A DNA stretch of 38,836 nt from Balneolales bacterium (GTDB lineage: Bacteria > Bacteroidota > Rhodothermia > Balneolales > Cyclonatronaceae): the NCBI GenBank assembly GCA_020832405.1, contig JAFIET010000036.1, positions 1-38,836 of the forward strand, in the 5' to 3' direction. How positions within the stretch are numbered: the first letter of the stretch is position 1; each line of letters opens with the position of its first letter. Of this stretch, positions 1,652 to 22,803 are shown one piece after another. Below the pieces are notes generated by a model. The model searched no databases. It had not been told where the DNA came from and saw only the letters and a program-made list of their open reading frames with translations. Both the position numbers and the translations under genes were made by a program.

Positions 1652-2815
1652 TTAGAAGGCTTCCCCGATGGTGAGATAAAGTCCGTTGCCGTGCGCGCCG
1701 AAGCCGTAGTCGATGCGGATGTTCATGCTGTCGCGTGGGTTGAGGTTGAACCGCAGCCCGGCCCCGCCGGCATATTTGGGATTGCTCAGGGTGAAGTCTT
1801 CGAACCGGTTCCAGACCTCACCGGCGGAGGCAAAAGCCACAGCGCCGAAGCGCCACCACAAGTGCTGACGCAGCTCAAGCTGTAGCTGCGCCACATTCTG
1901 ATCGTTGAAGCGGCCGAAGTAGTAGCCCCGGCCGATGTTATCGCCGCCGAGGCCGGGCATGGCCTGAAAGGGCACATCGCCGGTGGTGAAGAAGCCGCTG
2001 AAGTGCGCGGCCACGATGGTACCGGGCAGGGGTTCGGGCTGCCAGTAGCGGCGGGCATCGAGGTACATGGAGGAAAACCCTTTGGAGCCCGCAACTGACG
2101 GATTCACGACCGGCGTGATTTCGAAATAGCGGCCTTCGGTCGGTGTCATGATGCTGTTGCGGGTATCAAAACGGACCGAGAAGCCGAGCCCTGCGATGGT
2201 GTTGTTTTCGGGATTGCCCCTTGCCCAGGCGGCGGGAATGCTGCCGTCGTCGTTTTCGGGGATGACGACATCCCAAACGCGCCCAAAGTTGATGACCGGC
2301 CCGACATACCAGTTGTTGCCACGGTTTTGGAGGAAATCGACCTGCAGAAAAAGGCGGCGGTACTCGACGGTACGCTCGCTATCGTCAAGGCTGTCAAAGC
2401 CGGGCGCGTAGTACAGGGCCGGGAAATAATTGTAGCCGGCGTAGAGGTTATGAATCCAGGTTTCGCCGGGCCGGATGAGGGTGGTGCCGCCTTCGAGAAT
2501 AATTTGGCTTTTGAGAGTATAAATGCCGGTGGCAAACAGCTGCGACGCCCGCGTTTCATCGCCTGCACCGGCGGGCTTGAACTGATAAAACACGACGGCG
2601 CCGAGCATCAGCCCGGTTTCGGGCGTATAGGCTACGGCCGGTACCGGCACTATGCTGTTGCGGTAGGCATCCGGTTCGGCCTCAGCCTGAAACAGCAGGC
2701 CGCTCATGCCGGGCGCGCGAAGGGTATCGGCGGGGGCCTGTCGGGCGTGAACTTCGGCACAGGATATAAAGGCTATAAACAGCAGCGAGAGCGTTCTTAC
2801 AAATAGTTGATGCAT
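1652..2815 (-). CDS. Omp85/BamA-type outer-membrane beta-barrel without POTRA domains
   Basis: A 387-residue protein with a signal peptide (residues 1 to about 25, hydrophobic LSLLFIAFISC, then a VHARQA cleavage region). The rest alternates short amphipathic beta strands and ends in an aromatic residue (LTIGEAF), the usual C-terminal signature of outer-membrane barrels. The segments RFDTRNSIMTPTEGRYFEI, GLGGDNIGRGYYFGRF and GAGLRFNLNPRDSMNIRIDYGFG match the barrel region of the surface-antigen (D15/BamA/TamA) family, including the G-x-x-x-G-R-G-Y type motif. The length leaves no room for POTRA domains, so it is more like the small Omp85-related barrels of Bacteroidota than BamA itself. The transported substrate is unknown. 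Confidence 0.8.
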   Translation of the reverse strand: MHQLFVRTLSLLFIAFISCAEVHARQAPADTLRAPGMSGLLFQAEAEPDAYRNSIVPVPAVAYTPETGLMLGAVVFYQFKPAGAGDETRASQLFATGIYTLKSQIILEGGTTLIRPGETWIHNLYAGYNYFPALYYAPGFDSLDDSERTVEYRRLFLQVDFLQNRGNNWYVGPVINFGRVWDVVIPENDDGSIPAAWARGNPENNTIAGLGFSVRFDTRNSIMTPTEGRYFEITPVVNPSVAGSKGFSSMYLDARRYWQPEPLPGTIVAAHFSGFFTTGDVPFQAMPGLGGDNIGRGYYFGRFNDQNVAQLQLELRQHLWWRFGAVAFASAGEVWNRFEDFTLSNPKYAGGAGLRFNLNPRDSMNIRIDYGFGAHGNGLYLTIGEAF

Positions 2816-2854
2816 AGAATAATTCAGATTTCAGATCAAAAAGCAGATCAGGTT

Positions 2855-2876
2855 GTTACGTGCAGGTACCATGTAA
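2855..2876. promoter_or_regulatory. Inverted repeat ahead of the Omp85-like gene
   Basis: TTACGTG and CATGTAA form a 7-base inverted repeat with one mismatch around a 7-base spacer, about 40 bases upstream of the start at 2815. It could be an operator. There is no independent support. Confidence 0.25.
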
Positions 2877-2918
2877 GATACTCTGTAATCGGCTTCGGAT
2901 TCAGCGACACGCACTAAA

Positions 2919-2953
2919 TAAAAAAGCCGGCCTCTTGTAAGAGACCGGCTTTT
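2919..2953 (-). terminator. Rho-independent terminator of the lipoprotein/barrel operon
   Basis: On the minus strand the sequence reads AGCCGGTCTCTT, ACAA, AAGAGGCCGGCT, then a run of T. The 12-bp stem has one G-T wobble. It lies 38 bases beyond the stop codon of the lipoprotein gene at 2991. Confidence 0.8.
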
Positions 2954-2990
2954 ATGAAGTTATTGTAATTGTGATTTCTGTATAAAAATA

Positions 2991-4655
2991 TTACACGTCG
3001 TCGCAGATATTATCCGGGATATCAAATATTTCTTCGACTACCGTTGTTTGGCCGGCTACGGCATTGTTGAGATCAATATCATACTGATAAAAACGGCCAT
3101 CATAGTTGATGCCAATGGAATATAAATCGGGCTCGGGCAGGGTTACTTCAAGTACACCACTCAAAATGGTACCTGCCGGGCGCCATCTGTTACCAATACT
3201 TGATCGTATTTGTGCAGGTATGGTTGCATAAACAACTTCGTCCCGGTCGGCACAGCGGCCCTCTGCCCTAAATTCAAGATCAAATTCGGGGCTTGATATG
3301 GGCACCTGAAGCTCGGTTTGGGCACATAAATCAGCTATTTCAAACTCATCGATCTGTGTATAATTCATATTCTGAACAATCCCCCTAACAGGCACATTGC
3401 GAGGTACCTGCTGGAAACGCGTTTCGATTTCCCTCTCACCGTCAACAATGCGGGTTGAGGTGCGGTAGCTGGTAACGTAGCGCTGATTATCTGTTCTGAA
3501 CAAATCGCCCTGCAACCTTAGCTTGGTGCCGGTAAACTTAACCGTTGCACCGGATAAGCAGGCCGGGATGCCGTTGCCGATCATGCTCATCAGGGGCATC
3601 GTGCCGAGGGTCATCACGGATTGGTTAAAACTCCGGCCAAAAGCATCTTCAAGCTCAGTGATGCTTACTGTTTGGCTGAAGGTCCAGCTGTCGGGGCGGG
3701 GCTGGTTGCCGGCCCAGCTTTCAAACTCTTCCGTATCGAAATTGCTGGCGGGGTAGGTCATAGTGAGCTCCAGCGGCGGATCAAAAAGAACGGCTTTGCG
3801 GCCATTTTCGTCCTCAATGGAAGCCTGCACAACGCCGCGATAGTCAAACAGGGTTTGGTCGAGGTTGCCGCCACGATTTGATTCTCCAAAGCGCGGAAAA
3901 ACCCTATTGTTCGGCCCGTAGTAGATAAAAGTAGCGCGCAGACCGCCCTGAAGCGGGTTTTCGTTTTCATCCCTGATAACCGTTCCTTCCGGGATAAAAA
4001 AGCGAACGCTCGGGGTAATGATGGAAATCGGCGGATTTGGCGGCAGATTATCACTCAGTGTTCCGGCTCCGGCTTGCTGCCGGGCGGCATCCTCCTCATC
4101 GCTTGAACTGAACGTAATGGGCTCTAAGGTGATGCCTTCCGGGCTTGTTGCTCCGATCGGTACATTTTCCCGGATCACAACGTCTTCAGGCGGATCGGAA
4201 ATACGGACCATGCTAATATCAATGCTGTTTTCGCCGTTTCCGTCGATAACAACAAGCTGTGATTCGGGCAGGTAGCCATCCGCCGTAACATTGAGGGTAA
4301 AGATGACGGGATTCTCCGGGCTTGGCTCAATTTCATCCCGTATAGCGAAATTAAAAAGCCCGTTTTCGAGATCTCTGAGCGCGGTTACCTCTTCGTTAAT
4401 CATATTGATGATTACAAGGCCGTCGATACCTGAAAAGGTGGCATCAAGGGTGAGGTCATCGTTTTCGAAACCAATCACATCGCCGGTAGCGGCATCCTGC
4501 ACTACTACCGAAACGGTTGTATTCCGCTCCTTCAGATTAAGCATGAGCTTAATACCATCAATCGGGTTCGTTATATCGCAGGCAGAGAACATAAAAGCCG
4601 GAATCAAAACCAGCACCCCGACCAGCATTCTTCTAAATATTTTGATCAAATTCAT
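2991..4655 (-). CDS. Large lipoprotein with an N-terminal carboxypeptidase-regulatory-like beta domain
   Basis: A 554-residue protein whose N-terminus (hydrophobic VGVLVLIPAFMFSACD) carries a lipobox with the cysteine near residue 26, so it should be lipid-anchored. The first 170 residues (VSVVVQDAATGDVIGFEN, later IFTLNVTADGYLPESQLVVI) resemble a carboxypeptidase-regulatory-like or Big-type beta sandwich. The rest is beta-rich and acidic with a proline-rich linker near 195-215, and I do not recognise the family. It starts 19 bases after the small barrel gene, and the terminator at 2919-2953 closes the unit. Together they look like a two-gene envelope operon. Function unknown. Confidence 0.75.
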   Translation of the reverse strand: MNLIKIFRRMLVGVLVLIPAFMFSACDITNPIDGIKLMLNLKERNTTVSVVVQDAATGDVIGFENDDLTLDATFSGIDGLVIINMINEEVTALRDLENGLFNFAIRDEIEPSPENPVIFTLNVTADGYLPESQLVVIDGNGENSIDISMVRISDPPEDVVIRENVPIGATSPEGITLEPITFSSSDEEDAARQQAGAGTLSDNLPPNPPISIITPSVRFFIPEGTVIRDENENPLQGGLRATFIYYGPNNRVFPRFGESNRGGNLDQTLFDYRGVVQASIEDENGRKAVLFDPPLELTMTYPASNFDTEEFESWAGNQPRPDSWTFSQTVSITELEDAFGRSFNQSVMTLGTMPLMSMIGNGIPACLSGATVKFTGTKLRLQGDLFRTDNQRYVTSYRTSTRIVDGEREIETRFQQVPRNVPVRGIVQNMNYTQIDEFEIADLCAQTELQVPISSPEFDLEFRAEGRCADRDEVVYATIPAQIRSSIGNRWRPAGTILSGVLEVTLPEPDLYSIGINYDGRFYQYDIDLNNAVAGQTTVVEEIFDIPDNICDDV

Positions 4656-4674
4656 GAGAAAATCTTGTTAAGAG

Positions 4675-5328
4675 TCAGTTAATGCGGTAATAAAGGGATA
4701 TGGTCATAACCGGATAGGCCGTAAACCAGGACAGGTTGTTTTCAAGGGTCGGTGCCTGACTTGCTGAGGGCGCGAGCAGGCCGTCGGCCTTCATCGTTAC
4801 ACTTGGCGAGCCCTGAAACATAGCGCCAAGCTCGAAATTCACGCCAAAAGAGCTTCCGCGTAAAGCATTCCCAAAACCGAGCCCGAGGTATGGCGTAATC
4901 GGGCTGAAGCTTATTTCAGCCTCAAGATTGCCGAGCTCATCGGGCGCATAAACATCACCGCCAATTTCATAAGACTGCTTGGGCTGCATTTCAGCGGTTA
5001 CCGTATTGCCATTAAAAACGAGGCCGCCGGTAAGCCTGAAACGATTGCCAAACGGGTGCCAGTCAACCATAGCTGAATAATTGGACAGATTAAGACCTGC
5101 ATCGAGGTCGTAATCATCGTCAGCATCCGTTTCATAGAAGTAGGAATAGGAAAAGAAATTAGCACCGGCGCGTACATTAATTTTTTCATGTACCGACATG
5201 CTGAGCTCCCCTCCTGCCCCGAGTGTACCGATATTGGCTTTAACTGCGAAGGACTGTGCCATCACTTTATCCCCGGCGGCAAAAATAAGCAGGGCTGCAA
5301 AAGTGAAGATGAGAAGTTTTGTTTTCAT
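4675..5328 (-). CDS. Small outer-membrane beta-barrel protein
   Basis: I place the start at the ATG at 5328, giving 217 residues that open directly with a signal peptide (MKTKLLIFTFAALLIFAAG, cleavage near VMAQS). The frame extends upstream to 5394, but that stretch reads through a GC-rich hairpin and would spoil the signal peptide. The mature part alternates polar and hydrophobic residues (VHEKINVRAGANFFSYSYFY, ITPYLGLGFGNA, SFGVNFELGAMF) and ends in YPVMTISLYYRIN, typical of 8-10-strand outer-membrane barrels. It carries an acidic ETDADDDYDLDAG loop that could bind cations. It precedes the large lipoprotein gene by 19 bases. No enzymatic motif is visible. Confidence 0.75.
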   Translation of the reverse strand: MKTKLLIFTFAALLIFAAGDKVMAQSFAVKANIGTLGAGGELSMSVHEKINVRAGANFFSYSYFYETDADDDYDLDAGLNLSNYSAMVDWHPFGNRFRLTGGLVFNGNTVTAEMQPKQSYEIGGDVYAPDELGNLEAEISFSPITPYLGLGFGNALRGSSFGVNFELGAMFQGSPSVTMKADGLLAPSASQAPTLENNLSWFTAYPVMTISLYYRIN

Positions 5329-5409: not shown

Positions 5410-8400
5410 TTATTTAACCAGAAGCATTTTCCGGGTAATGACCATGCCGGAAGTTTGCAGCCGGTACAGGTACACCCCGCTTGAGAGGTTTGCAGCATCA
5501 AAACTCACCGTATGCACCCCTGCTTCAACGGTACCGTTCACCAGGCTTGCGACGCGCTGCCCCAGTACGTTGTACACCTCAAGGCGCACATCGGCGGCTG
5601 AAGGCAGGCTGTACTGAATTTGCGTAATCGGGTTGAAGGGGTTGGGATAGTTTTGGCTGAGGCTCACGGCTTCAGGGAGCTGGGTTTCTTCTCCGGGGCC
5701 GGATTCGCTGCCGGGCCGCACAAGTAGTTGATAGCGGGCTGCCATTGGCGCGTCCCTTTCTGCTGGTGCACTCATCTGAGCGGTAAGCTCACCACGGGGG
5801 GCCGGCCGGCCCTGCTGAGGCACTGCCGTTTCGACTGTAACCGAAGAAGCCGTACGCAGGTCAGTAATTTCGCCGGTTTGGGTATCCAGCAGAGCCAGCC
5901 CCCAATCATCCGGGAAGCGATCGGTTTCGGACCAGTTCAGTTCAGCTGTAGCGGCTGTTGCCTGCCAGCCTTCTCCATCCGCTTCATAGCGAATGATGCT
6001 CAGCGGGATGCGGATTTCTTCCTGTTGCCCTGCCGCCAGATCGAGAATATCATAGAGGCGGCCTTCCTTTTCAAGAGAAAGTTCAAGGTAAGAGCGAACA
6101 TCCATCGGCTGCAGCTGCCGTGCATTGCGCGGCTGTGTGCTGCCACTGTAGCTCAGCCAGCTTGTTGCCGGGTGAAGGCCTTCGGTTTCGGCCAGCAGCC
6201 TGAGGGCGGGCGCGTCGGTTCCGGGCCGTTCTGCATCCGGGTTGGTTACCAGCGCAGCGGCAGGGACTCCAAGGGAAGCATCATCCTCCAAAGTCTCCAC
6301 AAAGAAAGCTGTGAAAGGCTGAATGATGCCGTCTTCCAGCTCGCCGGCCAGGCCATTCCAGCTGCGGTAGCCGGGGATTGCGCTGTCGTACACATAAACG
6401 GCTTCACTCAGGCCGGAGCGGTCGAGGGCATCGGTATCCATCGGCCACAGGTTGTTGTTGGCCATCAGGGTCCATACGCCACCGGAAGGCGCCCCTTCAT
6501 CTGGCAGCTGATTCACCGTGAAACCTTTCACCGGTTCAGTTATTTCAAGCGCGGGTTTGCGGTACTGTGATACAATTGCGTGCACATCAACCTCGGTCTG
6601 CAAGGGCGGGGCGAAGGCGTAAATCGCAAAAGCTGATGTTTCAGGTGAGCCTGCACCGGACGGGCTGATACCCGTTACAGAACGCCAGCGGTTGCTGGAA
6701 GCGTAATAGTACAGGTTCGAAATTCCCGGCGGCACATCTGCCCCGACAAAACCCTGTGTTGCCAGAAAACGGGTAAATTCCGCATAGCTTTGGTTTCCGG
6801 TGAAGGACATCCCAAAATAGCGCCAGCCTTCTGCGCCTTCAATATGCGGGCCGGCGGCAATTACCGTACCGAAGGTGCCGGAACCTACAGCACCGCCTGC
6901 ATTTTCGGCTTTTAGCCAGGGGAAGGTGCGGCCTTCGATGATTTCCCAGGTATTCTCAAAATCAAAGGGTTCGAAAGAAGCCCCCAGCTGCATTTGAGCT
7001 GATGTGAGTGCAGTGGCAAAAAGGTCGAAATCAGCGGTACTGAGTTCATCATCCCAAAAAACATCCGCTACAATACTGCCCTGCGAACTTCCTATAAATC
7101 CGCCGGCTGCCGACAAAGTGCTGAAATCATCCGGAAAATGAACCGCTGAATAGGCCATTCGGATTTCCGAATCTAACTCAGCGCTGCCCGCAAAACCACC
7201 CAGGTTTTCAGCATCGCTGCCTAAAGCGCGCAGACTTCCGTGGGCGTACGCATTTTGAATAAGTGCACCGGCGTGCAAGCCTACAAAGCCGCCCACATTC
7301 AGGCTGCCCGAAACACCGGGCACACCCGCTGATGACGATAGTCCGGCTCCGGTCCGGTGGGCAGCAAAACTGTTTTCGATCACCGTGCTTCCGCTTGTTT
7401 GCCCGGCGAAGGTCCCGACGTTGGTAACACCCCGTACCTCAGCGGTTACGCTGCTGTTTCGGATGATGGTATCGTGCGCGTGGGCAACCAATCCGCCCAC
7501 ATTCACGCCTTCTAAGGCAGATAACACCCGTGCATTGACCAGATGGGTGTTTTCAATTACCGCACCTTCTGTATAGCCAAACAGCCCGTTATTTGATCGG
7601 GGGCGTGTGCCGCAACTTAAGGTTGAAATACAAATAAAGCTGTAACCGGACACCGCAAAATCATTTCCCTGCCAGTTGCCCATAAACGGATACTGCGGGT
7701 TTCCGATCGGATCAATCCGAACACTTGCTGAGAAATTCAGATCCTGTGCCTGGGAAAAATGTGATTCAAAAAACCACCTCACCCGGTCAAATTCGAACAG
7801 GTTTGTGACTTCAAAGGGATGTGTTTCGGTGCCGGCTCCCGCAAAAAAACCAGAAACGCCGGTCCAGCTCGTGAAGCCTGTTGCCGGGCTGCTGAAGCCG
7901 CCACCGAGGAAAAGCTCATCGGCATAAGGGGCTATAGCCTGAACAGGTGCATCCGTGCCGCTGGAAATGCTCAGCCACTCGCTATCGGCCCAGTTCCTGC
8001 GAACAATGTTGGCAGAGCCTTCCGCTGAGCCTGCTCCGGAAAAATCTCCGGCCAGGAAAATGTTATCGCCATACACCTTCAGATCGAAAACAGGCCCTTC
8101 GGGACTGCCGCTCACACTTGTCCAGGTCAAATCAGCAATTGACAGAACCGCGAAATGCTCTCCGCCGCTTTCAGCAGAAAAATTGCCGCCAACGTAAAGC
8201 GTTTTTCCGATTTTGTTTTGCAGAGCGTACACAACCGCGGGCAGATCATCAGATGCCGGCGAAAGGCCGTCTATTCCGGACCATTCGCCGGTTTCGAGAT
8301 CGAGCATGGCAAGAGCTGTTGCGGGTTCGGTGAAAGCACCGCCGGCAAACAAGGTGTTGCCCCAAACAGCCAAGGCATGAACCGGTCCATCGAAGGGGGC

Positions 8401-21754: not shown

Positions 21755-22075
21755 ATGCTCTACGCCGTATCAATTGACGCGCCCGAAACCAAACGCCTTG
21801 CTGAAATAGCCAAAGCGCTTGGCCATCCTGCACGGGTAGCCATCCTCAAAATTCTCGCAGCCCGCAACACCTGCTTCTGCGGCGACATCACCGATCTGCT
21901 GCCCATGGCACAGTCAACGGTTTCGCAGCACCTCAAAGCCCTTAAACAGGCCGGGCTTATCCGGGGGGAAGTGGAAGGCACGCGTGTGAGCTACTGCCTT
22001 AACCCCGACGGTATCCGCGAGCTTCAGCAGCACCTGAACAGCATTTCCTCCGACTTAAGCCGCGTATGCTGCTGA
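21755..22075 (+). CDS. arsR: ArsR-family arsenite-responsive repressor
   Basis: A 106-residue winged-helix repressor of the ArsR/SmtB family. It shows [20 protein letters not shown], then [15 protein letters not shown] and [20 protein letters not shown] (recognition helix), and [10 protein letters not shown] (wing). The cysteines at 40 and 42, at the start of the DNA-binding helices, and the pair at the C-terminus (105-106) are candidate As(III) ligands. When arsenite binds, such repressors leave the DNA. A 16-bp palindrome overlaps its promoter and a matching one precedes arsD, implying it controls both units. The start at 21755 gives the usual family length. Confidence 0.93.
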
Positions 22076-22194: not shown

Positions 22195-22803
22195 ATGATG
22201 AACGACTCAACAACCCTCCAAACGCTCATTCAGGTATATGATCCGGCCATGTGCTGCAGCACCGGCGTTTGCGGCTCCGATGTAGATGAAGCACTCGTAA
22301 ATTTCGCTGCCGACGTAAAATGGCTCAAATCGCAGGGCATTGATATACAGCGGTTTAATCTCGGTCAGGAGCCGCTCGCCTTCAAAGAGCAGCCCGAAGT
22401 GCTCAGCCGCCTCAAAAATGACGGCGCCTCCATCCTGCCGCTAATTGTGGTGAACGGCAAAATCGTTGCCGAAGGGCGCTACCCAAGCCGCGACGAAATG
22501 TCCGCTCTCGCACTTCCACAGCAAGCGGAAATAACACAGTCCGGAAATGAAACTCCCGACCTCAGCAAACTTCTTGAAGATATAGAAGCAGCCGTTGCGC
22601 ACGGTACGGAAGCGGATTTGGTAATCGCTTTTGAAGCGGGCGAGTCGGCCGGGCTTACCTCTCAGGATATGGCCAACGCCATGCAGGCCGGCCTCAACAA
22701 AGCACAGCGCCGAATTTCAGTTATTGTAAACACAGCCAATCAGCTGCTTGGTGCCGGTAATTCCTCCGGAAGCTGCTGTACCCCCGGCGGCGGTTGCTGC
22801 TAA
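22195..22803 (+). CDS. arsD: ArsD arsenite metallochaperone with C-terminal extension
   Basis: A 202-residue protein. Residues 10-115 are the thioredoxin-like ArsD domain: YDPAMCCSTGVCGSDVDEAL carries Cys20, Cys21 and Cys26, equivalent to the arsenite-donating triad (12, 13 and 18 in the plasmid R773 protein), followed by ILPLIVVNGKIVAEGRYPSR. The usual ArsD is about 120 residues. Here an extra helical region follows (about 122-190, LLEDIEAAVAHGTEADLVI to VNTANQLLGAG), and the tail ends SCCTPGGGCC with two cysteine pairs. ArsD hands As(III) to ArsA, encoded 54 bases downstream. The extension weakly recalls an AhpD/carboxymuconolactone-type helical half without its CxxC; that is only inference. 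Confidence 0.9.
   Translation: MMNDSTTLQTLIQVYDPAMCCSTGVCGSDVDEALVNFAADVKWLKSQGIDIQRFNLGQEPLAFKEQPEVLSRLKNDGASILPLIVVNGKIVAEGRYPSRDEMSALALPQQAEITQSGNETPDLSKLLEDIEAAVAHGTEADLVIAFEAGESAGLTSQDMANAMQAGLNKAQRRISVIVNTANQLLGAGNSSGSCCTPGGGCC

Follow-up and report, generated by a model that had tools for sequence, protein, structure and literature searches.

An AhpD/CMD-like domain, mostly without its CxxC motif, inserted in the ArsD metallochaperones of Balneolales

We have found that the ArsD protein encoded in a 38,836-nucleotide stretch of a Balneolales genome (contig JAFIET010000036.1, hereafter the window) carries a domain homologous to the AhpD/CMD family. Judged from the sequence comparisons, the extra element of this protein is a helical domain that separates the chaperone part from the tail cysteines native to ArsD, and not the tail itself. 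The long form is conserved throughout the order Balneolales, and the active site has been lost in the group to which the window protein belongs. The initial annotation had described an extension with a faint AhpD/CMD likeness but without the catalytic CxxC, followed by four tail cysteines as a possible added soft-metal site; the first part of this interpretation stands, while the second is not supported.

ArsD and AhpD/CMD are both known families, and their fusion is a new variant; in the open-access literature searched, no fusion of ArsD with CMD or AhpD is described. ArsD has been studied as a compact carrier of 110–120 aa with one essential site, and here a whole clade carries an extra domain before the tail. 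This domain has a known redox ancestry, and natural versions with CxxC, without CxxC and with the domain lost all exist, so that the roles of the ArsD tail and of the CMD proteins in ars operons are directly testable. Besides the fusion, a second question is raised by the genomes which possess arsDA and no recognised pump.

The window protein and its predicted fold

The gene lies between arsR and arsA, adjoining the latter (Table 1), and its product is the single ArsD found in a search of the window genome. PF06953 matches it with 137.1 bits, against a curated cut-off of 27, and the same part corresponds to the solved ArsD structure 3mwh by sequence (8.3e-31) as well as by fold. About 88 residues follow this match in an intact frame, which agrees with the earlier reading that the chaperone domain ends near residue 115 and the protein continues to 202. 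The cysteines are seven in total, at positions 20, 21, 26, 194, 195, 201 and 202. A frame artefact as the source of the extension has been rejected on account of the 37 aligned homologues. In addition, DUF6428 gives a weak match to residues 170–202 (0.04–0.12), covering the last helix and the tail only; a dapA library match (0.002–0.01) and weak matches to ATP synthase gamma and sigma factors were set aside as chance.

We have modelled window ArsD as a monomer by AlphaFold2 with 17 sequences. The extension, proposed earlier to be helical, is confidently predicted to form three helices (residues 123–136, 139–151 and 156–184), with pLDDT values of 93–97 in most blocks, and the same helices are obtained at about pLDDT 98 when the extension is modelled alone. 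The linker at 109–117 (pLDDT <50) and the tail, where the values are likewise low, are both modelled as disordered. In structure comparison, the predicted residues 121–184 best match 3bey (Z 10.1, rmsd 1.9, 63 aligned), followed by RclX 7y4r (Z 9.2), TTHA0727 2cwq (7.5), the AhpD core 2ouw (7.4) and CMD 1vke (7.1), but Z values of the size of several of these can arise by chance between helical bundles, and therefore the sequence evidence matters. With the extension alone, 3bey is at the top again (3bey_E, Z 9.7; Foldseek probability 1.00 but E 0.37), and no Foldseek E-value was as good as 0.001. The prediction and fold search proposed in the initial annotation thus point to an ordered three-helix domain with CMD structures as the best matches; fold matches to YebC and a corrinoid protein are weak and were set aside as chance.

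Table 1 Features of the window ars operon and of other ars loci mentioned in the text
Locus	Feature	Coordinates	Strand	Basis
Window	arsR, ArsR/SmtB regulator, CFCGD motif	21755..22075	+	HTH_5 4.1e-14; NF033788
Window	arsD with inserted CMD/AhpD-like domain	22195..22803	+	intact ORF, 202 aa
Window	ArsD metallochaperone domain, residues 12-114, thioredoxin-like fold	22228..22536	+	PF06953 4.9e-40; 3mwh Z 15.1
Window	As(III)-binding motif C20 C21 ... C26 (CC-x4-C)	22252..22272	+	in 37/37 long ArsDs; function from literature
Window	flexible linker of variable length, residues about 105-120	22507..22554	+	pLDDT <50 at 109-117; length differs across alignment
Window	AhpD/CMD-like domain of three helices without the catalytic residues, about 121-186	22555..22752	+	predicted fold and alignment
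Window	site of lost CxxC, T138 and D141 replacing both Cys	22606..22617	+	alignment columns
Window	Cys tail CC-x5-CC (C194, C195, C201, C202)	22774..22800	+	same spacing in E. coli ArsD
Window	arsA, two-domain ATPase, 590 aa	22858..24630	+	TIGR04291 739.9 bits
L121	zinc-ribbon protein with CC tail	5841-6056		PF09723 confirmed
L124	zinc-ribbon protein with CC tail	4497-4727		PF09723 confirmed
L125	zinc-ribbon protein with CC tail	4428-4661
L126	zinc-ribbon protein with CC tail	5678-5911
L124	Com_YlbF protein	7503-7871		Pfam (PF06133)
L126	Com_YlbF protein	2039-2407
L121	ArsM-ArsD fusion	2775-3962		ArsM by eye
L122	ArsM-ArsD fusion	2575-4248		ArsM by eye
L123	ArsM-ArsD fusion	3633-4793		ArsM by eye
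L144 (contig C86)	C-terminal part of ArsP_1	193-558

AhpD/CMD homology and the native Cys tail

At the sequence level, window ArsD itself does not match PF02627 in a Pfam search up to E 10. Among its fused relatives, 8 of the 14 scanned are above the curated cut-off, i.e., all seven with CxxC (L003, L015, L018, L043, L066, L071 and L031) and L012, in which one Cys is left; L004 falls below the cut-off, and L011, L006, L009, L014 and L002 show no CMD match. Starting from the extension of L043, phmmer reaches the CMD/AhpD chains 2cwq (1.1e-4) and 3bey (6.5e-4), and the comparison of ten CxxC-less rows with five stand-alone CMDs by hhalign gives a probability of 75 with E 2.5e-5. That is, the link of the window domain to CMD rests on intermediates and fold, because it has no CMD match of its own in Pfam and no Foldseek E-value down to 0.001.

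We take the catalytic set of the AhpD type to be E/C/C/H, with the residue roles of M. tuberculosis AhpD. In window ArsD, these four positions are occupied by L126, T138, D141 and A145, and E, both Cys and H are all absent. The complete set is retained by 3 of the 37 fused proteins (L043, L066 and L071) versus 5 of the 7 stand-alone CMDs, while CxxC is present in seven long ArsDs and absent from the other 30. PMC8945050 describes AhpD proteins as CxxC thiol reductases. The faint resemblance to AhpD/CMD proteins without CxxC, noticed earlier, is hence borne out by the fold match, the relatives above the PF02627 cut-off and the replaced catalytic positions.

Compared with the known systems, window ArsD shares with the E. 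coli R773-type metallochaperone (PF06953, NF033727) the chaperone domain, CC-x4-C, the CC-x5-CC tail and the arsR–arsA position, but adds a CMD-like domain of about 65 residues plus a linker before the tail. With the AhpD/CMD family (PF02627; 3bey, 7y4r, 2ouw, 1vke) it has the three-helix fold in common, and some fused relatives also have CxxC with E and H, whereas in the window copy E, both Cys and H are missing, and it occurs singly, embedded in a different protein. The best NCBIfam match of the CxxC-bearing extensions is NF041047, the GSU3128 family of distant AhpD homologues, with 29.6–31.6 bits; this is far under the cut-off of 110 bits, and NF041047 is a stand-alone (seleno)protein family. 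A precedent for AhpD joined to an arsenic protein is NF041537, the arsenite methyltransferase/AhpD-domain selenoprotein, which is listed in a table of a selenoproteome review (PMC13188914) and is matched by L003 at 2.1e-6. There the partner is ArsM with Sec, while here it is ArsD without Sec; window ArsD does not match NF041537, and the best relative reaches 26.8 bits against a cut-off of 510.

The C-terminus of window ArsD reads SCCTPGGGCC, so the CC-x5-CC described earlier is indeed there. Its reading as an added soft-metal site is not supported, since CC-x5-CC is the ordinary C-terminus of ArsD: in E. coli R773 ArsD, the pairs are Cys112–113 and Cys119–120 according to PMC4562236, where the chaperone activity is also said to require the N-terminal Cys12/13/18. 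Translation of an E. coli plasmid gene likewise gives an ArsD with the end SCCGGKTSCC, and a Cys-rich CC tail is present in all 30 of the 30 ArsDs inspected from other families of the phylum; for these reasons the tail is not an addition. Exceptions without such a tail are found in the phylum and the order (L019, L020 and L124–L128). The conservation of the tail among relatives has been confirmed, as C-x5-CC or CC-x5-CC is exact in 35 of the 37 long ArsDs and broken in two; the full motif including the fourth Cys occurs in four, window ArsD among them. According to PMC13381914, As–S binding in ArsA and ArsD is three-coordinate.

Small zinc-ribbon proteins in ars operons also end with CC-x(4-6)-CC like ArsD, e.g., GGCCTPGSGCC, and the Cys tail of ars-operon proteins looks modular. 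Com_YlbF proteins ending with APSSCCS or APSSCCG are found near arsA in ars clusters.

Distribution and origin of the fusion

We have sampled 128 Balneolales genomes, of which 41 contain ArsD (45 match rows). The survey of ArsD lengths suggested by the initial annotation gives 37 distinct long forms with the domain (185–232 aa), located in 36 of these 41 genomes. The other eight rows are short ArsDs without the insert in G014 and G017, a 126-aa protein in G015 with the insert gone and the tail kept, a 111-aa frame ending early in G030, one fragment at the edge of a contig in G441 and three broken arsD fragments in G450. In the phylum sample, ArsD occurs in 69 of 394 genomes and the long form with the domain in 11, all within Balneolales; one pattern scan extending outside Bacteroidota gave two loci, both again from Balneolales. 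No place covering 80% of the query was found in the plasmid collection. G450 has two CxxC-bearing fused ArsDs (L071 on contig C4 and L072 on C16) together with two ACR3s, one ArsB and the broken arsD pieces. In three genomes of the same class, long ArsD frames are due to a second kind of fusion, in which ArsM is ahead of ArsD, beside arsA (Table 1).

In other Bacteroidota (L124, L125 and L126), a stand-alone CMD of 80–85 aa with CxxC is encoded between the ArsR gene and arsD-arsA (PF02627 4.2e-13 in L124), and thus the two proteins united in the fusion are found elsewhere as neighbours in one operon. In the CMD-domain tree, 29 of the 30 CxxC-less proteins, including window ArsD, constitute one clade (98/94). 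As this clade is kept when the three trait columns are removed, but with support down to 67/85, a single loss of CxxC among the fused ArsDs is likely rather than demonstrated. CxxC as the older state is supported by the trees and the stand-alone CMDs, though these do not prove it. The stand-alone L124–L126 are nested among the fused domains in the unconstrained tree (80/79), and the data do not reject a constraint that unites all fused domains in a single clade (p 0.40). The chaperone-domain tree is poorly resolved and needs five changes of the CxxC label. In this tree, the domain-less L016 and L017 are placed together with L015 and L018, which bear CxxC (89/99), and the absence of the domain there therefore looks like a secondary loss. 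Since L016 has lost the domain and retained the tail, the domain appears dispensable in at least one lineage.

Possible role and operon context

As the active site has been lost and the domain kept, it is probably a scaffold rather than an enzyme. With moderate confidence, we favour the reading that the inserted AhpD/CMD-type domain started out as a redox module acting through a dithiol, and that it now presents the tail thiols as a scaffold without catalytic activity. The domain is inserted into the As(III) metallochaperone ArsD, between the body and the native Cys tail. In the ancestor, it may have been a dithiol redox partner resembling the separate CMD protein that other Bacteroidota encode near arsD, with the task of keeping ArsD reduced at its thiols or of handling arsenic bound to thiols. 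The window domain would now serve as a scaffold, probably for oligomerisation or for docking to ArsA, and the C-terminal C-x5-CC thiols on their flexible arm would make up a putative second three-thiol site, which may hold As(III) from C20/C21/C26, or let it pass, en route to ArsA.

A decaying relic, i.e., a spacer between chaperone and tail tolerated after the dithiol redox function was lost, is a doubtful alternative. The CMD domain is less conserved than the chaperone part (mean pairwise identity 0.40 versus 0.69 over 666 pairs; tail, 0.66), CxxC is missing in 30 of 37 proteins, and L016 has kept its tail without the domain, all of which would suit decay. On the other hand, the dN/dS of the CMD domain in five CxxC-less close pairs is 0.10, 0.21, 0.19, 0.15 and 0.24 (chaperone part, 0.05–0.13), i.e., the CxxC-less domain is under purifying selection in close pairs. 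Relic status is also at odds with the residues that are specific to the fusion and absent from most stand-alone CMDs (Q164, L185 and G186 in 37/37, N182 in 36/37), as well as with the intact three-helix prediction.

Quite unlikely, in our estimation, is a mainly regulatory role of domain and tail, in which the fusion would act at the ars promoter, either as co-repressor or by sensing redox state, as reported for the tail cysteines of E. coli ArsD, and CMD would be the dimerisation module. PMC4562236, a paper on Bacillus CDB3 ArsD, links the R773 C-terminal pairs to regulation and reports no promoter binding by a tail-less Bacillus ArsD, and arsR is directly upstream in the window; but a dedicated ArsR is thereby present, and no DNA-binding family in Pfam or NCBIfam is matched in the extension. 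We regard it as very unlikely that the CxxC-bearing relatives are still redox-active and that window ArsD relies on a different thiol, with its tail CC pairs reducing from within the same molecule. Its rare full CC-x5-CC (4/37) could speak for this, but none of the four AhpD catalytic residues is retained in window ArsD, and the confidence of the tail prediction is low.

Beyond the scaffold reading, one may imagine that the fusion in these Balneolales has two S3 sites, CC-x4-C in the chaperone and C-x5-CC on the tail, built on an inactive AhpD scaffold, and that it relays or sequesters As(III) between them. In cells devoid of both known arsenite pumps, ArsD–ArsA would then act in storage or supply an unknown permease in place of ArsB/ACR3; we consider this improbable. 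ACR3 has no match at E 0.001 in 10 of the 21 genomes searched (G000–G006, G009, G046 and G239), and no convincing ArsB is found in the same ten (the score of G000, 22.2 bits, just equals the cut-off, and G005 reaches 19.5 bits). G005, pump-less by this search, is a single contig. Several genomes, the window genome included, thus seem to have arsRDA without a recognised ArsB or ACR3, and the neighbourhoods are arsR-(phosphoesterase-like)-arsD-arsA without a pump. For a different ArsA cluster, PMC2963123 noted arsA operons in genomes without other ars transporters. An association between CxxC and a pump (ArsB/ACR3) was examined in 21 of the 37 proteins, with G450 counted twice and G015, which is without the domain, left out: the raw counts of 6/0 versus 5/10 give Fisher p 0.012, but only 1–2 pairs are independent by phylogeny, for which a sign test gives p 1, and therefore the link is not claimed.

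The window genome (G000) also has a 157-aa frame that matches an ArsP_1 permease over its C-terminal part. This locus (L144, Table 1), which has an ArsR-like frame next to it, may possibly be an alternative or broken pump; ArsP_1 matches are found in G046 and G239 as well. Two further genes, both named by sequence appearance, recur in these operons: a phosphoesterase-like gene (MKIALFSDIHAN...) beside arsR/arsD in L071, L074, L078, L081, L085, L089, L138, L139 and L141, and a DinB-like gene (...WKMGRTRLTNQL...) in some of them.
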